From: an uncultured Opitutaceae bacterium
Lineage (GTDB): Bacteria; Verrucomicrobiota; Verrucomicrobiia; Opitutales; Opitutaceae
DNA: 64,000 bases
NCBI GenBank assembly: GCA_903890485.1
Contig: CAITBM010000026.1
Location: 62,001 to 126,000 of the forward strand
Direction: 5' to 3'
Shown: piece after piece, positions 9,417 through 63,403 of the stretch
Layout: each line of letters starts with the position of its first letter
Numbering within the stretch: the first letter of the stretch is position 1
The notes under the pieces: model-generated
What the model was told of the DNA's origin: nothing
What the model saw: only the letters and a program-made list of their open reading frames with translations
Database searches by the model: none
Position numbers and translations under genes: made by a program

Positions 9417-10237
9417 AGCAGAATTCAGAACGGAAAATCACGGTTGAGGACCTTTTGCGCCTGAAAAGGGCGGAGCGTCCAAAGGCCGAGTTCTGGGCCA
9501 CGTTTGAGGCCGAGATCCGTTCCAAGCAGCTTTCGGCGATCGTGAACAAGCGTCCCTGGTGGCACGGCCTATCGCAGGCTGCCGCCGTGGTGAGCCGCTA
9601 CCAGATGCCGTTTGGCGCCGCTGCCGCACTGGCGGTCACCTGGGCGGGGGTCCACTACTATTCCCCTCCTTCGGTCTCCGCCGTGCATAGCGTGGCCGTC
9701 ACCCCTCGGGCCGCCGCTTCCGCTCCGACCGCGGCCCTTGCCGCCACCCCCTCTGCTCCCGTTGCCCTGAGCACCGCCAGGTCCGGCGAAGTGACCCGGG
9801 TCGCCGCCCGTGAGGACCTGCCAGCGCGGGATGCCGTGGTCCTGGCCACCGCCTCCCACATCACGAAGGCCCCGGTGGAGGCGACCTTGGACGGCTTGAG
9901 CAAGTCGCCCTTTGCCGAGGGAATTTCCGTCTCCCTTGCCGATTACCGTGAGCCCCAGGCCGAGGTTGCGCGCCGCTCGGTGTTTGGCTCCGACCGCGAT
10001 TTTGAGTCCGCCCTTGCCCCCGCCCGGCAGGCGCCGTCCGACCCCCTTGCCCGCATGGATCCCGCCCAGGAGCGCCGCTCGCGCCTGCTGGCCCCCGCAC
10101 TTCCCGCCTACTCCCCGGCTTCCCAGCGTGCGCTCGCAAGCGACTGGATGAGGGCCAAGGCCTCTTCCGACGAGCGGATGTACGAGTCGATGGACCGCAG
10201 CTCCAGCGACCGGATGCTGGTCGGCTTCAGGTTCTAG
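9413..10237 (+). CDS. Putative membrane-anchored regulator/anti-sigma protein
   Basis: This 274-residue protein starts in the ATGA overlap with the sigma gene. It has a charged N-terminal cytoplasmic part (about 1-60, with [15 protein letters not shown]), one weak hydrophobic segment near residues 65-85 ([16 protein letters not shown]), then a long Ala/Pro/Ser-rich, presumably periplasmic, tail. No HxxxCxxC zinc anti-sigma motif is present, so the anti-sigma role rests on gene order and topology only. Its TAG stop interlocks with the fumarase stop on the other strand in a shared CTAG at 10234-10237. Confidence 0.55.
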
Positions 10238-29172: not shown

Positions 29173-29628
29173 TCAGTCCTTGTGGCTCTCGGTCGTGGCC
29201 GGCGCCCCGTCGCCGCGCAGGGCGTTCAGGGCCGCGTGCCAGGAAAGCGTCGCACACTTGATGCGAGCCGGGAAGGCGTGCACCCCGGCGAAGGCCCCAA
29301 GGTCGCTGATCTCCTCCGGTTCCTTGCCGGTGGTGACGATCTCGTGGAACTCCTTGTAGAGGTTCTCCGCCTCGGCAGTGGTCTTGCCCTTGAGCTGGGT
29401 CGTCATAAGCGAGGCGCTTGCCTGGGATATGGCGCAACCCGAGCCGTCGAAGGAGATCTCGGCGATGCGGTCGCCGTCCAACCTAAGGAAGACGTCGCAC
29501 TGGTCGCCACAGGAAGGGTTGTCCCCGTGGGCCGACCGGTTGGCTGTCGGAATCCGTCCCCGGTTGCGCGGCCTGCGGTTGTGGTCCAAGATGACGTTCT
29601 GGTAGAGATCGGAAAGGTCGGCCGACAT
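29173..29628 (-). CDS. sufU: SufU-type Fe-S scaffold / sulfur-transfer protein
   Basis: A 151-residue NifU-N/SufU protein. The three conserved cysteines are in NPSCGDQCD (with the Asp of the metal site), DGSGCAIS and RIKCATLSWHA, and YQNVILDHNRRPRN at the N terminus is the family signature. SufU binds zinc and receives persulfide from SufS, encoded directly downstream. The insertion between the second and third Cys is typical of SufU rather than IscU. Confidence 0.92.
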   Translation of the reverse strand: MSADLSDLYQNVILDHNRRPRNRGRIPTANRSAHGDNPSCGDQCDVFLRLDGDRIAEISFDGSGCAISQASASLMTTQLKGKTTAEAENLYKEFHEIVTTGKEPEEISDLGAFAGVHAFPARIKCATLSWHAALNALRGDGAPATTESHKD

Positions 29629-39316: not shown

Positions 39317-41806
39317 GTGGAATCGGCAATCAAGCGATCTAAGGCGCTCGGCGCTACCGGATACGTTCTGTTGGCTGCCGTTTTGGTTTTTGCGGCCGGG
39401 TACGCCTTGGTTCGCCAGCGTCCCCCCGCCTTCGATCACGGGAAAGTGTACCGGATCGGCTACGGCAACGACGCGCCCTACCACTTTGTCGGGCCGGACG
39501 GCTCGCCGATGGGACTCGCCGTCGAACTCGTGCGGGAGGCGGCACGGCGCTCGGGCATCAAGCTCGAATGGGTCCCGGGCACAGGGTTCAACCTGGATAC
39601 TGTGGACATGTGGGTGCTCGCGACGATAACGCCGGAGCGGCTCAAGCTGTTGCACTTGACCGAGCCCTATCTCCAGGCGGAGATCGCATTTCTCGTCCGT
39701 GCCGACAGCCCGATCCGAAATGCCGCCGAGCTAAGTAAGGCCCGGATCAGCTGCCGCAACCTACCGGTCGTAATCCAGGTGCTGCGTCAACTGATGCCCG
39801 AGGCACAAGTTGTAGTGGCTGACGGCAGCAAGGGAACCTTCGCGGAACTGGCCGAGGGAAGGTCGGACGCGATCTTCATCGACCAGCATGTCCTCTTGAT
39901 GTCGCTCCTGCACGGCGATCCGCACGTGGCGCTCAGGATGCTCCCGTCGCGGTCGCCGAGGCGACCGCTGGCCATCGCCTCCACCTTCGCGAGCGCAGCG
40001 GTGGCCGACGAGCTTCGCCGTTCGATGCAGGAAATGGGCGAGGACCGCAGCTCCACGCCGATCATCGAGCGGTGGACGTTCTTCTTTGACCCCGCCAATG
40101 CCATTGTCGGGGAGACGGCGCACGAGAAAGCCCGGGTGGAGCGGCTCGTGATCGGCCTCGTGGGGATGGCGATCGTGATCTTGATCATGGTCGGCCTTAT
40201 CGTCTGGTCCCGTCGCCAGGCCGCACAGCTCCTCCAGACGAGGAAGCTCCTTCGAGAGGTTGCTGATCGAGTCCCGGGCCTTGTCTTCCAGCTAAGGCTA
40301 AACGCCGATGGGACGTTCTGCTTGCCCTATGCGAGCGAGGCGATCCGGAAGATCTATCATGTGACACCGGATTCGGTGCTCACCGATGGAACAGCGGTGC
40401 TCATGGCCGTGCACCCCGAGGACCGAGAAAAATTCAAGGCTTCCATAAGTCAGTCCGCTGCTCAGCTCACGCCGTGGCAGCACGAGTTTCGCGTGCAGTT
40501 CGACGAGGGCCCCTTGCGCTGGCACTCGGGTAACGCGCTGCCGCAGCACGACCACGGCGGCGTAACGCTCTTCCACGGCTTTATAACCGACATCACTGAG
40601 GCGAAGGCCGCCGAGGAGGCGATGGAGAGCTTCGAGCGCAAGATCCAGCAGACGCAGAAGCTTGAGAGCCTGGGTCTTCTTGCGGGAGGCATTGCCCACG
40701 ATTTCAACAACATCCTCACCAGCATCCTTGGGAGCGCGGACCTCGCGATGCACAGCATCACAGCGGGTGCGCCCGCGCAGGAATATCTCAGGTCCGTGAA
40801 GCAGGGATGTCGGCGCGCGGCCGAGCTGTGCAAGCAGATGCTCGCGTACTCCGGCAAGGGCCGCTTCGAGATACGCAAAGTGTAGTTGAATACCCTTGTC
40901 GAGGAAACGGCGGAATTGCTGAGGCTCTCCATCAGCAAACAGGCGGAACTCCGATATGACCTTAGCCCAAACCTCCCGAGCATCGAGGCGGACACGACCC
41001 AGATGCGACAGGTGATCATGAATTTGGTGATCAACGCATCCGAGGCGATCGGTGCAGGCAACGGCTTGATCAGCCTGAGCACTTCGGTCATGCGGGTCCC
41101 TAAGGATGATCCGATCGGCCTGATGCTCGCACCCGAGCACGCCGCCGGAACCTACGTTTGCCTGGAGGTCAGCGACACGGGGTGCGGCATGAGTGCAGAA
41201 ACACAGGCCCGAATCTTCGATCCTTTTTTCACCACGAAATTCACGGGGCGCGGGCTGGGTCTCGCCGCCGTGCACGGCATAGTTCGGGGACACAAGGGAG
41301 TGATGAAAGTCTACTCGGAGCTTGGCCGAGGAACTACGTTTAAGTTGCTCTTTCCCGCAGCTGAAGGGGAGAACGATCCGTCCCCGGGCACCTCGGCGGC
41401 CCGTGCGCCGGCGGAGTGGCGCGGCAAGGGTTGCATCCTTGTCGTGGACGACGAAGAGGCTGTGCGCAGGGCGTTGTCCGCCATGCTAAAGAATCTCGGC
41501 TTTACCGTGGTGCTCGCAAGCGACGGACGGGAGGGTCTCGAGAAATTCCGCCAGACCCCGGCGCAATTTGCGGCGGTGCTGATGGACTTAACGATGCCGC
41601 AGCTTAACGGGAAACAGGCGTTCGCTGAACTTCGGCGGATCCATCAGGACGTTCGCGTCGTGCTCATGAGCGGCTTTAGCGAGGAGGAGGCTGCGCCCGA
41701 GCTTGTCGGCAAGAAGCTCGCCGGGTTCCTCCAGAAACCGTTTGAGTTTGAAGCCCTCATAGGCGTGTTGCAGCGCGCCTTAGGTGAGACTCAGGCCGAG
41801 TCTTGA
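39317..41806 (+). pseudogene. Hybrid sensor histidine kinase interrupted by an in-frame TAG
   Basis: One continuous reading frame of 829 codons is broken only by TAG at 40883-40885. Order of domains: membrane segment (about 14-33), periplasmic SBP_bac_3-type sensor (about 45-260), second membrane segment (about 275-298), PAS (about 312-420), HisKA with catalytic His461 in AHDFNNIL. After the stop come HATPase (NLVINASEAIG, VSDTGCGM, GRGLGLAAVHG) and a receiver (VVDDEEAV, phospho-Asp in VLMDLTMPQ, Lys in LQKPF). The TAG falls in the linker between HisKA and ATPase domains. A TTG follows it directly, so two separate polypeptides by reinitiation are possible; nonsense mutation, sequencing error or read-through are the alternatives. 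Confidence 0.8.
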
Positions 41807-43367: not shown

Positions 43368-43457
<90 letters not shown>

Positions 43458-43655: not shown

Positions 43656-43862
43656 ATGCAAACCGTAACTATATCTCCTAAGTTTCAGGTCGTAATTCCT
43701 CAACGCGTGCGTGAATCCATGGGCCTTCGCTCCGGAGAAAAGGCACACGTCATCTCGTTTCGCAATCGGATCGAGATCATCCCATTGCGTGACGTCAAAA
43801 AATTACGAGGGTATCTGAGTGGAATCGATACTTCATTTGAACGGGAAGCCGACCGTGTATGA
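43656..43862 (+). CDS. vapB: AbrB/MazE-family antitoxin (VapB-like)
   Basis: A 68-residue protein with the swapped-hairpin AbrB DNA-binding domain: TVTISPKFQVVIPQRVRESMGL is the family signature, followed by an acidic and basic tail that should bind the toxin. Its stop overlaps the VapC ATG (ATGA, 43859-43862). It probably represses its own promoter through the palindrome upstream. Base composition is lower in GC than neighbouring housekeeping genes, in line with transfer. Confidence 0.87.
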   Translation: MQTVTISPKFQVVIPQRVRESMGLRSGEKAHVISFRNRIEIIPLRDVKKLRGYLSGIDTSFEREADRV

Positions 43863-44242
43863 ACGTTGTCGATTCCTCGGCTTGGTTGGCCTACTTCTCA
43901 GAGGAGAAAAATTCCGCCTTTTTTGCGGATGCGATTGAGGACACTGAGTTATTGATCGTACCCGTGATATGCCTTTACGAGGTGTTTAAGGTGGTTCTGC
44001 GGGAAAGGGGTGAGGACGACGCGCTCCAGGCAGTATCCGCAATGCAACAGGGCGTTGTTGTAGATTTGGACAGCGATCTTGCGTTGGAGGCGGCGATAAT
44101 CGGTCACGAGGAGAAATTCGCTTTTGCGGATTCTGTGATCTACGCGGTTGCCAAACGGCACAACGCGACTGTCTGGACTCAAGACGAGCATTTTTTCGGA
44201 CGAGCCAATGTGCGTTTTAAAGCAAAGGGAAGAAAGCCCTAA
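43859..44242 (+). CDS. vapC: PIN-domain toxin (VapC-like ribonuclease)
   Basis: A 127-residue PIN-domain endoribonuclease. Acidic active-site residues lie in VVDSSAW (Asp5), LYEVFK (Glu), FADSVIYA (Asp) and WTQDEHF (Asp), the VapC order. Translationally coupled to the antitoxin. VapC toxins cut tRNA or rRNA; the target here is unknown. The pair lies between two copies of a tRNA-Ser 5' half. Confidence 0.88.
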   Translation: MNVVDSSAWLAYFSEEKNSAFFADAIEDTELLIVPVICLYEVFKVVLRERGEDDALQAVSAMQQGVVVDLDSDLALEAAIIGHEEKFAFADSVIYAVAKRHNATVWTQDEHFFGRANVRFKAKGRKP

Positions 44243-44780
44243 CGAATCAACGGATCCGACTCTCGCGTCAGGCACGCTTGGTGCCGGGCACCAGTCGCGC
44301 TTTACTTAACGCGGATCGATTCAACGTCGCAGGTCTTCGAGGGTTCGAAAAAGGAGCGTTGGCGAACGCGAAGGCTACCGTATCTAATGGGGTGATACAA
44401 ATAGGTACCGCTGCCGAGACGGAAGGGATGCCTCTACCTTCAAAAGACCGACCAGAAACCGACCAAAATCAAAAATTAGCAAAATCAGAGCCGCCAATGG
44501 TAATTGATAGGCAACGAGTTACCTATGCGGCTCGAATTCATACACCATGATTTCCAATCATGCACATTCGACCACTCTGCCACCTCTCCGTGGGCCTGAC
44601 CGACAGCTTGTCCGTCGGGACAAGGGGAAGATCAAAGCTCACGCGGCTGCATAGGATCAAATGCATTCTCCACGTGGCTTTGTTCCCATCTTTTTGGGTC
44701 CAGCGGGCAATAGGCTGGGTGGGGGAACAACGGGGTTGCAGTCCCGGGATTGGGGGGGCTTCATTTTGCGCCATTACCCC
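44243..44780. other. Gene-free region after vapC holding the tRNA half-copy
   Basis: This 538-base stretch has no supportable gene. At about 44309-44324 it repeats, with one mismatch, the GCGGATC(A/G)ATTCAAC sequence of 43590-43604. It then holds an A/C-rich segment (AGACCGACCAGAAACCGACC) and, at 44546-44592, the partial tRNA-Ser copy plus about 80 bases of diverged similarity to the region upstream of the intact tRNA. The final 100 bases should contain the GH2 promoter. Confidence 0.55.
44546..44592. repeat. Direct repeat copy 2: partial tRNA-Ser 5' half
   Basis: Exact 47-base copy of 43414-43460 in the same orientation, ending abruptly in the anticodon stem; the T arm and 3' acceptor strand are absent, so this is not a functional tRNA. 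With copy 1 it brackets about 1.1 kb containing vapBC. Confidence 0.87.
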
Positions 44781-60409: not shown

Positions 60410-61003
60410 CTAGCGCCAGTGGCCCTCGTGCCACACCCAAGCGCCGCCGCGGCGGTCCCAATGCCCTGACTCCCATGCGGCGCCGGGATGGTAGTGGGGG
60501 TGGCGCTCATAGTGGCCGCGAACCCACACCCATCCGCCACTCCAATGCCAGTGGCCGCCGATCCAAAAGAACTCCGGGCCGGGCGCCATCGGTATGGCTT
60601 CGACGATCGGAGCCGGGGGAGCCTCTTGGGCGATCACTTCGACGGGTTGCCCCGGGGGCGGGGGAGGGGTCGCTACCGTGGCGTAGTGGCCCTCGATCCA
60701 GACCCATCCGTTGCCTCGAGCTACCCATTGGCCGGGTATCCAAGTGTAGCCGGGCGAGGAGACGCGGTCCCAGTGCCCGTTGATCCATTCCCAGCGCTCG
60801 TGTCTCCAGGACCAGTGCCCGCGGATCCAGATGTATCCCGGCCCGGGGTTCATCGGAACGACCTCCACCCGCTCTGGGGGTGGCTGGGTGCGCACGACAA
60901 TTTCCGGGCCGCCAATGGTGAGGCCGATTTCGACCCCGGCGCTTGCTGCCCACGGAAGGGAGCTGCATGCGAGGGCTAATAGAGAGAGTTTTACGAATTT
61001 CAT
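60410..61003 (-). CDS. Exported YXWGXW-repeat-like Trp/His-rich protein
   Basis: A 197-residue protein with a signal peptide (1-22, ending ASAG). The rest consists of repeated Trp-rich strands of the form (Y/W)xW(I/V)xGHW: YIWIRGHWSW, WEWINGHW, YTWIPGQW, WVWIEGHY, FFWIGGHWHW, WVWVRGHY and WVWHEGHW, in two groups separated by a Pro/Ala linker. This matches the YXWGXW (BcpO-like) exported family of unknown function. Confidence 0.78.
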   Translation of the reverse strand: MKFVKLSLLALACSSLPWAASAGVEIGLTIGGPEIVVRTQPPPERVEVVPMNPGPGYIWIRGHWSWRHERWEWINGHWDRVSSPGYTWIPGQWVARGNGWVWIEGHYATVATPPPPPGQPVEVIAQEAPPAPIVEAIPMAPGPEFFWIGGHWHWSGGWVWVRGHYERHPHYHPGAAWESGHWDRRGGAWVWHEGHWR

Positions 61004-62635: not shown

Positions 62636-63403
62636 ATGTTTAGAGTCCTGCAATTTAACATGCAGTTCGGAATGGGCTGGGATTCAGCCGATCCCGATTC
62701 TGTGCCACACGACATCGACCGGACGATCGCGGAGATCAAGAAGCACAACCCCGACGTTGTGCTGCTTTAGGAGGTCGAGCACGCCCGTCCGGGTGGCGAG
62801 CAGATCGAGCCGCCTCCGAACTACACGCGGCTAAAGGAGGCGCTGACGGACTACGACAGCTATTTCTCGTACCCCAAGGCTGATCCGCGCGAGTTGCCCT
62901 TCGGTATTGGCCTGGCTATATTCTCCCGAACGCCCCTGATCGATCCTTTTCGGATCGATGTGCCCTCGCCCGCGATCGAGTTCGAGTTTGGCGGCAAGAA
63001 GACGACGCCCACCGACCGCCTCATGATCGGCGCGAAAACCGAGGTGGGCGGCCGCCAGGTCCAGTTCTTCAACGTGCACCTGCTCGCCTTCTTCATGCTC
63101 GGTTCGAGCAGCACCATGTTCCCCTGGCAGCGTGACCTCGTAGCCGACCGCCTCGCCTCGTCGGACCTGCCGACAATCCTCGGAGGGGATTTCAACGTGA
63201 GCCAGCACGCCTCCCTCGTCGAGCAGTTTGCGGAGTTTGGCTACGCGACGGTTCAGTACAAGGTGCCGACCTGGCACCGTCGCCCCTTCGTCCTGGACCA
63301 TATCTTCTATAACTCGGGACTGCGCTGCCTGGGCCACGCCGTCGAGAACTCCCTTGCTTCGGATCACCTGCCGATCCACGCAGATTTCGACTTCGGGTTC
63401 TAG
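62636..63403 (+). pseudogene. Endonuclease/exonuclease/phosphatase-fold protein with in-frame TAG
   Basis: From ATG 62636 the frame reads an EEP-family protein of 255 codons broken only by TAG at 62768-62770 (codon 45). N-terminal FRVLQFNMQFGMGW and NPDVVLL are followed by the stop exactly where the family has Gln of LLQEVE, next to the metal-binding Glu. Later motifs are intact: ILGGDFNVSQH, VLDHIFYNS and SDHLPIHADFDF. A single C-to-T change in CAG would explain it. Without suppression only a start downstream of the catalytic Glu is possible, giving an inactive product. The 3' end shares CTAG with the convergent gene. Confidence 0.75.

Follow-up and report, generated by a model that had tools for sequence, protein, structure and literature searches.

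A gene of the endonuclease/exonuclease/phosphatase (EEP) family in an uncultured Opitutaceae bacterium is interrupted by an in-frame TAG at codon 45, and with a probability of roughly 0.88 this TAG is an ordinary nonsense codon in a dispensable gene and not a recoded one. The reading is preferred because the corresponding residue is glutamine in all relatives compared, because many genes of this genome end in TAG, and because release factor 1 (RF1) is present. The gene lies in a stretch of 64,000 nucleotides that was analyzed as a whole and is referred to here as the window; its source genome (G000) is a metagenome-type assembly of 3.1 Mb in 144 contigs, with an estimated completeness of 97% and contamination of 2%.

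An in-frame TAG one codon ahead of an invariant glutamate

62636..63403, + strand: EEP-family gene (PF03372), 255 codons with one interruption, assigned by its PF03372 match and by intact orthologues elsewhere
62768..62770, + strand: premature in-frame TAG, codon 45; Gln in relatives by alignment
62636..62770, + strand: standard-code product of 44 residues, stopping short of the invariant Glu and, further on, of the likewise invariant GDFN and SDH motifs
62894..63403, + strand: leftover downstream frame, whose first possible start is a TTG 42 codons past the stop, with no Shine-Dalgarno-like tetramer by a simple test

The frame runs from the ATG at 62636 to a terminal TAG at 63401-63403, and the TAG at 62768-62770 is the sole interruption in its 255 codons. 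The translation around it reads VVLL*EVEH, which puts the stop one codon ahead of the family-invariant Glu, the position that the first-pass annotation of this DNA had given. When read through, the frame matches PF03372 (Exo_endo_phos) over profile positions 1-225 of 225 (E=8e-20, 71.9 bits against a cut-off of 24.5). The QE (Q45 E46), GDFN (G184-N187), and SDH (S242-H244) motifs, which mediate metal binding and catalysis in the EEP superfamily, are invariant in 17/17 aligned rows, in which the window TAG was entered as Q, so that Q45 stands for 16/16 relatives. In covering the whole profile and keeping these motifs, the read-through protein resembles other members of the superfamily, but the window copy differs from them in being interrupted: the TAG at codon 45 of 255 leaves it without the uninterrupted standard-code frame of an active EEP enzyme. 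It also has no equivalog or solved-structure relative by sequence, as the best NCBIfam equivalog model scores 32.7 bits against a cut-off of 144, and searches for proteins of solved structure, with the single sequence or with a 17-row profile, returned none at E<=0.001.

Under the standard code, the ribosome would end after codon 44, and the resulting 44-residue product is predicted to be inactive, because it is without the Glu and without the GDFN and SDH motifs. No usable restart was found beyond the TAG; the TTG at 62894 is not preceded by a Shine-Dalgarno-like tetramer, and a product started there would also miss Glu46. The EEP gene would be silent in cells that carry the TAG. There is one other EEP match in the same genome, 31% identical over positions 118-252. 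The upstream neighbor of the interrupted gene is a Thy1-domain gene (PF02511, 61161-62507), and at its 3' end it shares the CTAG at 63400-63403 with a convergent short frame on the opposite strand, both frames ending in overlapping TAG codons.

Glutamine at the site in every relative compared

Among 57 genomes searched for EEP orthologues, the source genome included, clear orthologues with 45-93% identity are found in 20 others, including 8 of the 12 congeners, and all are intact. The column that holds the stop is Gln in 20/20 aligned orthologues (8 of them same-genus), and nowhere else in this 20-orthologue alignment does the window differ from a unanimous residue. Across all fetched loci, the site is spanned by 64 tblastn rows, 60 with CAG and 4 with CAA. 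These rows represent 46 distinct sequences, every one of which has a Gln codon at the site and none of which has an in-frame stop within its matched stretch. The Gln consensus claimed by the first-pass annotation is thus borne out, and an ancestral Gln codon, as inferred from the relatives, is supported as well. Programmed readthrough would be expected to conserve the stop itself, which is present in 0/46 distinct relatives.

Of the named relatives, the closest are MAGs with the label Opitutaceae, and the isolate names of several contain palsa or bog. Orthologue-like proteins with 60-65% identity (L140-L142, L144-L146, L151) also occur in MAGs labelled Gallionellaceae, Sideroxydans, Nitrosomonadales, and Beta- or Gammaproteobacteria, perhaps as a result of horizontal transfer or of mis-binned contigs.

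Apparent dispensability, selection, and the age of the stop

Searches of G001, G009, G011, and G012, which make up 4/12 congeners and are 93-95% complete, gave no EEP match, and the gene therefore looks dispensable in the genus. Codon changes were divided between the window branch and the branch of the relative G004, using as outgroup G008, which was assumed from identities and not taken from a tree, and leaving aside the codons that have three different states (31 in all, 23 of them downstream of the stop and 8 upstream). Past the stop, the window branch carries 4 nonsynonymous and 36 synonymous changes, which departs from the neutral expectation of ~73% nonsynonymous (P ~1e-16), and the G004 branch carries 2 and 30 (Fisher P=0.69 against the window branch). 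Before the stop, there are 7 synonymous and 0 nonsynonymous changes on the window branch, and 1 and 2, respectively, on that of G004. Read from the sequences, these counts show purifying selection on the post-stop codons of the window branch and no decay there, and nearly all of this branch probably passed under selection for the full-length protein. Since decay has not set in, the stop would have to be very recent, or unfixed in the population as a strain variant, or an artefact such as a metagenome-type consensus error. The same observation is a point against the ordinary reading, because an absence of decay is also expected of a gene that is still read through. Continued function by readthrough would leave identical branch counts, but it finds no other support.

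The gene shares with bacterial nonsense pseudogenes a single stop in an otherwise intact frame, a lack of matches in a third of the congeners, and membership in a set of interruptions with the expected stop spectrum (see below), and differs from them in having undergone no decay so far. Within the ordinary-nonsense reading, a real recent nonsense allele is the probable form, a strain or assembly variant taking up the smaller share. The latter, a strain polymorphism or a consensus error of the assembly with most cells carrying the Gln codon, is a sub-case that is judged rather unlikely although worth weighing. The lack of decay after the stop and the absence of any other departure from family-unanimous residues are consistent with it. 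Against it, dispensable genes acquire nonsense mutations as a matter of course.

Other interrupted genes and the nonsense spectrum

39317..41806, + strand: hybrid histidine kinase gene (SBP_bac_3, PAS, HisKA, HATPase_c, and response-regulator domains), the other clean TAG-interrupted frame found in the window
40883..40885, + strand: in-frame TAG separating HisKA from HATPase_c; the G004 orthologue, 74% identical, has Ser (TCG)

The first-pass annotation had counted two in-frame TAGs in otherwise intact genes of the window, giving no position for the first. One other clean TAG is found, at 40883 in the kinase gene, and over 10 homologous rows its site is Ser in 8, Asp in 1, Asn in 1, and Gln in 0. 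The two window TAGs, one at a Gln site and one at a Ser site, therefore share no amino acid, and the idea of a second Gln-amber site in the window was rejected. The coding-potential scan behind this count covered the whole window and requires 40 open codons before a stop and 60 after it; sequence of relatives is comparable for ~39 kb of the window, so that in the other ~25 kb a less clear interruption may be missed. Several further stops were considered and set aside. Those at 29173 (TGA) and 16491 (TAA) are followed by an ATG 3 and 2 codons on, respectively, and are read as boundaries between neighboring same-frame genes. The TAG at 10234 was flagged in one scan and is absent from two others, and the TAG at 60410 is the end of a WXXGXW-protein gene, for which G003 has a stop at the equivalent position.

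Beyond the window, 848 kb of the source genome were surveyed against congener stretches, of which 261 kb aligned. This survey leaves 4 interrupted genes in G000, namely the two in the window and two genes for putative ATPases. A further interruption came from a family search and is excluded from the count of 4 in 261 kb.

G000:C116:840 (L108:840), + strand: GspE/PilB-like ATPase gene, one TAG, from the aligned-DNA survey
G000:C111:20376 (L120:376), - strand: PilT-like ATPase gene, one TAA, from the aligned-DNA survey
G000:C125:2858 (L200:2858), + strand: MMPL-family gene, one TAG, from the family search; Gln in the single relative compared (G004)

In the closest relative, the residues at these five stops are Gln for the EEP gene, Ser for the kinase, Ser for the GspE-like gene (which is 98.6% identical to that relative), Tyr for the PilT-like gene, whose stop is TAA, and Gln for the MMPL-family gene. 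The GspE-like and PilT-like sites vary in more distant homologues, with Gln in 2 and 3 of 13 rows each. Whereas a suppressor would be expected to place its TAGs mostly at one amino acid, the four TAG sites, a small sample, are divided as Gln, Ser, Ser, and Gln. This mixture of residues, together with the one TAA, tells against the partial suppression at Gln-type amber codons that the first-pass annotation had thought possible.

The codon usage of the genome predicts that random nonsense mutations yield TAG in a fraction of 0.64, TAA in 0.14-0.19, and TGA in 0.18-0.23, with transition weights from 1 to 4. Codons for Glu, Lys, Gln, and Trp contribute prominently to TAG by this estimate, and Gln codons turning into TAG should account for 0.10 to 0.23 of all random nonsense. 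With P(>=4 TAG of 5) = 0.41 and P(>=2 TAG-at-Gln of 5) = 0.08-0.32, neither TAG nor Gln appears to be clearly over-represented among the five interruptions. As about two thirds of random nonsense mutations create TAG, genes interrupted by this codon can look like amber recoding, and a couple of clean cases should be read with caution, since plain mutation or assembly noise suffices to produce them.

Density of interruptions

The first-pass annotation had held that two such events within 64 kb exceed chance, a claim that is weakened by the present estimates, since two or more have P=0.26 at the rate sampled across the genome and a rough 0.05 when the rate is taken from outside the window only. 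In the congeners, two TAGs interrupt a single gene within 223 kb of G003, and 149 kb of G002 yielded no interrupted gene; the aligned-DNA survey thus sets 4 genes in 261 kb of G000 against 1 gene in 372 kb of congeners (one-sided P ~0.1). The G003 gene, on contig C78 (L161:18733 and 18973, - strand), is of the LuxR response-regulator type as judged from its sequence, and its homologue in the window genome (L212) is an open frame with Lys and Gln at the two TAG sites.

For these counts, homology filtering listed 33 candidate stops, 18 in G000, 9 in G003, and 6 in G002, of which 4, 2 (one gene), and 0 were kept. Among the 27 dropped, 23 were shadows, in which a different open frame has the better score, and 4 others (L118:13200, L190:9646, L099:5420, L232:13064), which had been marked as possibly real beforehand, were dropped by judgement, having negative or weak scores on one side and the look of a gene-edge overrun. 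The coding-potential candidates, 18 in 464 kb of G000 and 19 in 258 kb of relatives, for the most part resemble neighboring same-frame genes, and only those supported by homology were counted; earlier unfiltered listings held many more rows.

A stronger contrast emerges from two protein families. PF00437 matches with an internal stop number 2/8 in G000 and 0/98 in 12 congeners, and for PF00873 the figures are 1/10, this one being below the family cut-off, and 0/134. Pooled, this gives 3/18 against 0/232 (Fisher P=0.0003), a biased figure, as PF00437 was picked after two interrupted members had been seen. A possible nonsense excess of G000 over its congeners counts against the ordinary reading, but it is weakened by this biased choice, by frameshifts being uncounted, and by the P of ~0.1 in aligned DNA. 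The internal-stop count is blind to frameshifts, and several congener matches consist of neighboring segments that lie in different frames (G010:C153 and G008:C52 for PF00437; G008:C127, G008:C114, and G010:C161 for PF00873). These splits suggest frameshifts, either real or introduced by assembly, and congeners therefore have broken-looking genes too.

A modest nonsense excess in this assembly is possible, and it would fit a variant-rich or error-bearing consensus and real decay alike. For the variant or error sub-case in particular, the surplus of isolated stops relative to congeners in the two families would fit sporadic consensus substitutions, and so would the lack of frameshift-like pairs, of which none were found in 193 kb aligned of G000 (or in 200 kb of G003), a smaller set than the 261 kb. 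The aligned-DNA survey, on the other hand, shows no clearly higher rate than in relatives. MutY and MutS are both matched without internal stops, so that no mutator is indicated and loss of either was rejected as an explanation; the MutY match is under the NCBIfam cut-off in 13/13 genomes.

TAG as a stop codon and the decoding machinery

TAG terminates 15/31 of the window's long non-overlapping ORFs, chosen for their length. Across the 848-kb sample of G000, which includes the window and has a GC content of 63.9%, TAG is the commonest terminal stop, closing 255 of 588 closed predicted genes against 229 for TGA and 104 for TAA, counts that come from mechanical gene prediction and are approximate. 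The corresponding figures for TAG in congeners are 155/502 in G003 and 113/300 in G002. A survey of 736 bacterial genomes gives an average TAG usage of around 20% (PMC3549826). RF1 (prfA) is intact at G000:C98, with 447.6 bits against a cut-off of 423.25 and no internal stop. An Rfam RF00005 search of the whole genome (E<=10, anticodons by ARAGORN) returned 48 matches, and the 45 over the cut-off all have sense anticodons. The tRNA-Gln(CUA) that the first-pass annotation had suggested looking for is not among them: no CUA anticodon occurs in these 45, and no tRNA was called in the 3 weaker matches, although at 97% completeness a gap could hide one.

Low-level amber suppression, in which a near-cognate tRNA-Gln inserts Gln and some full-length enzyme is kept, is improbable. 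Near-cognate insertion of Gln at UAG occurs in other organisms, tRNA-Gln with CUG and with UUG anticodons is present in this genome, and the purifying selection past the stop on the window branch would agree with such insertion. However, no suppressor tRNA was found among the matches just described, RF1 is intact, the other interruptions fall at Ser and Tyr sites and include a TAA, and 0/8 congener orthologues have the stop, so that there is no conserved recoding signal. A 4-bp anticodon stem, an idea for a near-cognate route to stop-codon reading taken from one report (PMC13092985), was rejected here, as both tRNA-Gln have ordinary 5-bp stems by inspection.

Also improbable is a free-living Opitutaceae species with a leaky amber codon that tolerates a load of in-frame TAGs in conserved genes, in which near-cognate tRNAs, or a suppressor hidden in an assembly gap, read a fraction of UAG codons while TAG stays the commonest stop. 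If true, it would be a striking natural example, with TAG serving the bacterium as its main stop as well. Pyrrolysine coding or a genome-wide reassignment of TAG has a negligible probability, as PylS is not matched over the cut-off (two weak matches, 24.3 and 22.9 bits against 178.15), TAG is not rare or unused but the commonest terminal stop of the sample, and RF1 is neither lost nor altered. The first-pass annotation, which took TAG as a normal stop in this window and excluded its reassignment, was right in this respect.

Among the literature matches listed for recoding, for nonsense mutations and pseudogenes in MAGs, and for stop-codon usage, there is no Opitutaceae title, and those on nonsense and pseudogenes in MAGs concern Chlamydiae. 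The Opitutaceae belong to the Verrucomicrobiota, the phylum of Ca. Pinguicoccus supinus. In that lineage, recoding of UGA to Trp has been reported (PMC13092985). The two cases are alike in their phylum and in having an in-frame stop in a conserved gene. They differ in that the codon is UGA there and TAG here, where it is the commonest stop, RF1 is present, and a suppressor tRNA was not found.

A weak tRNA-like match in the window was considered as a suppressor tRNA and rejected, since it duplicates the 5' half of tRNA-Ser(GGA), whose complete gene lies at 43368-43457. This half is present as an exact 44-base repeat (43414-43457 and 44546-44589, - strand), the second copy being a fragment at a distance of 1.1 kb. 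Between the tRNA gene and this fragment lies a PIN-domain gene (43859-44242, + strand), and the region looks like a small module inserted at a tRNA.
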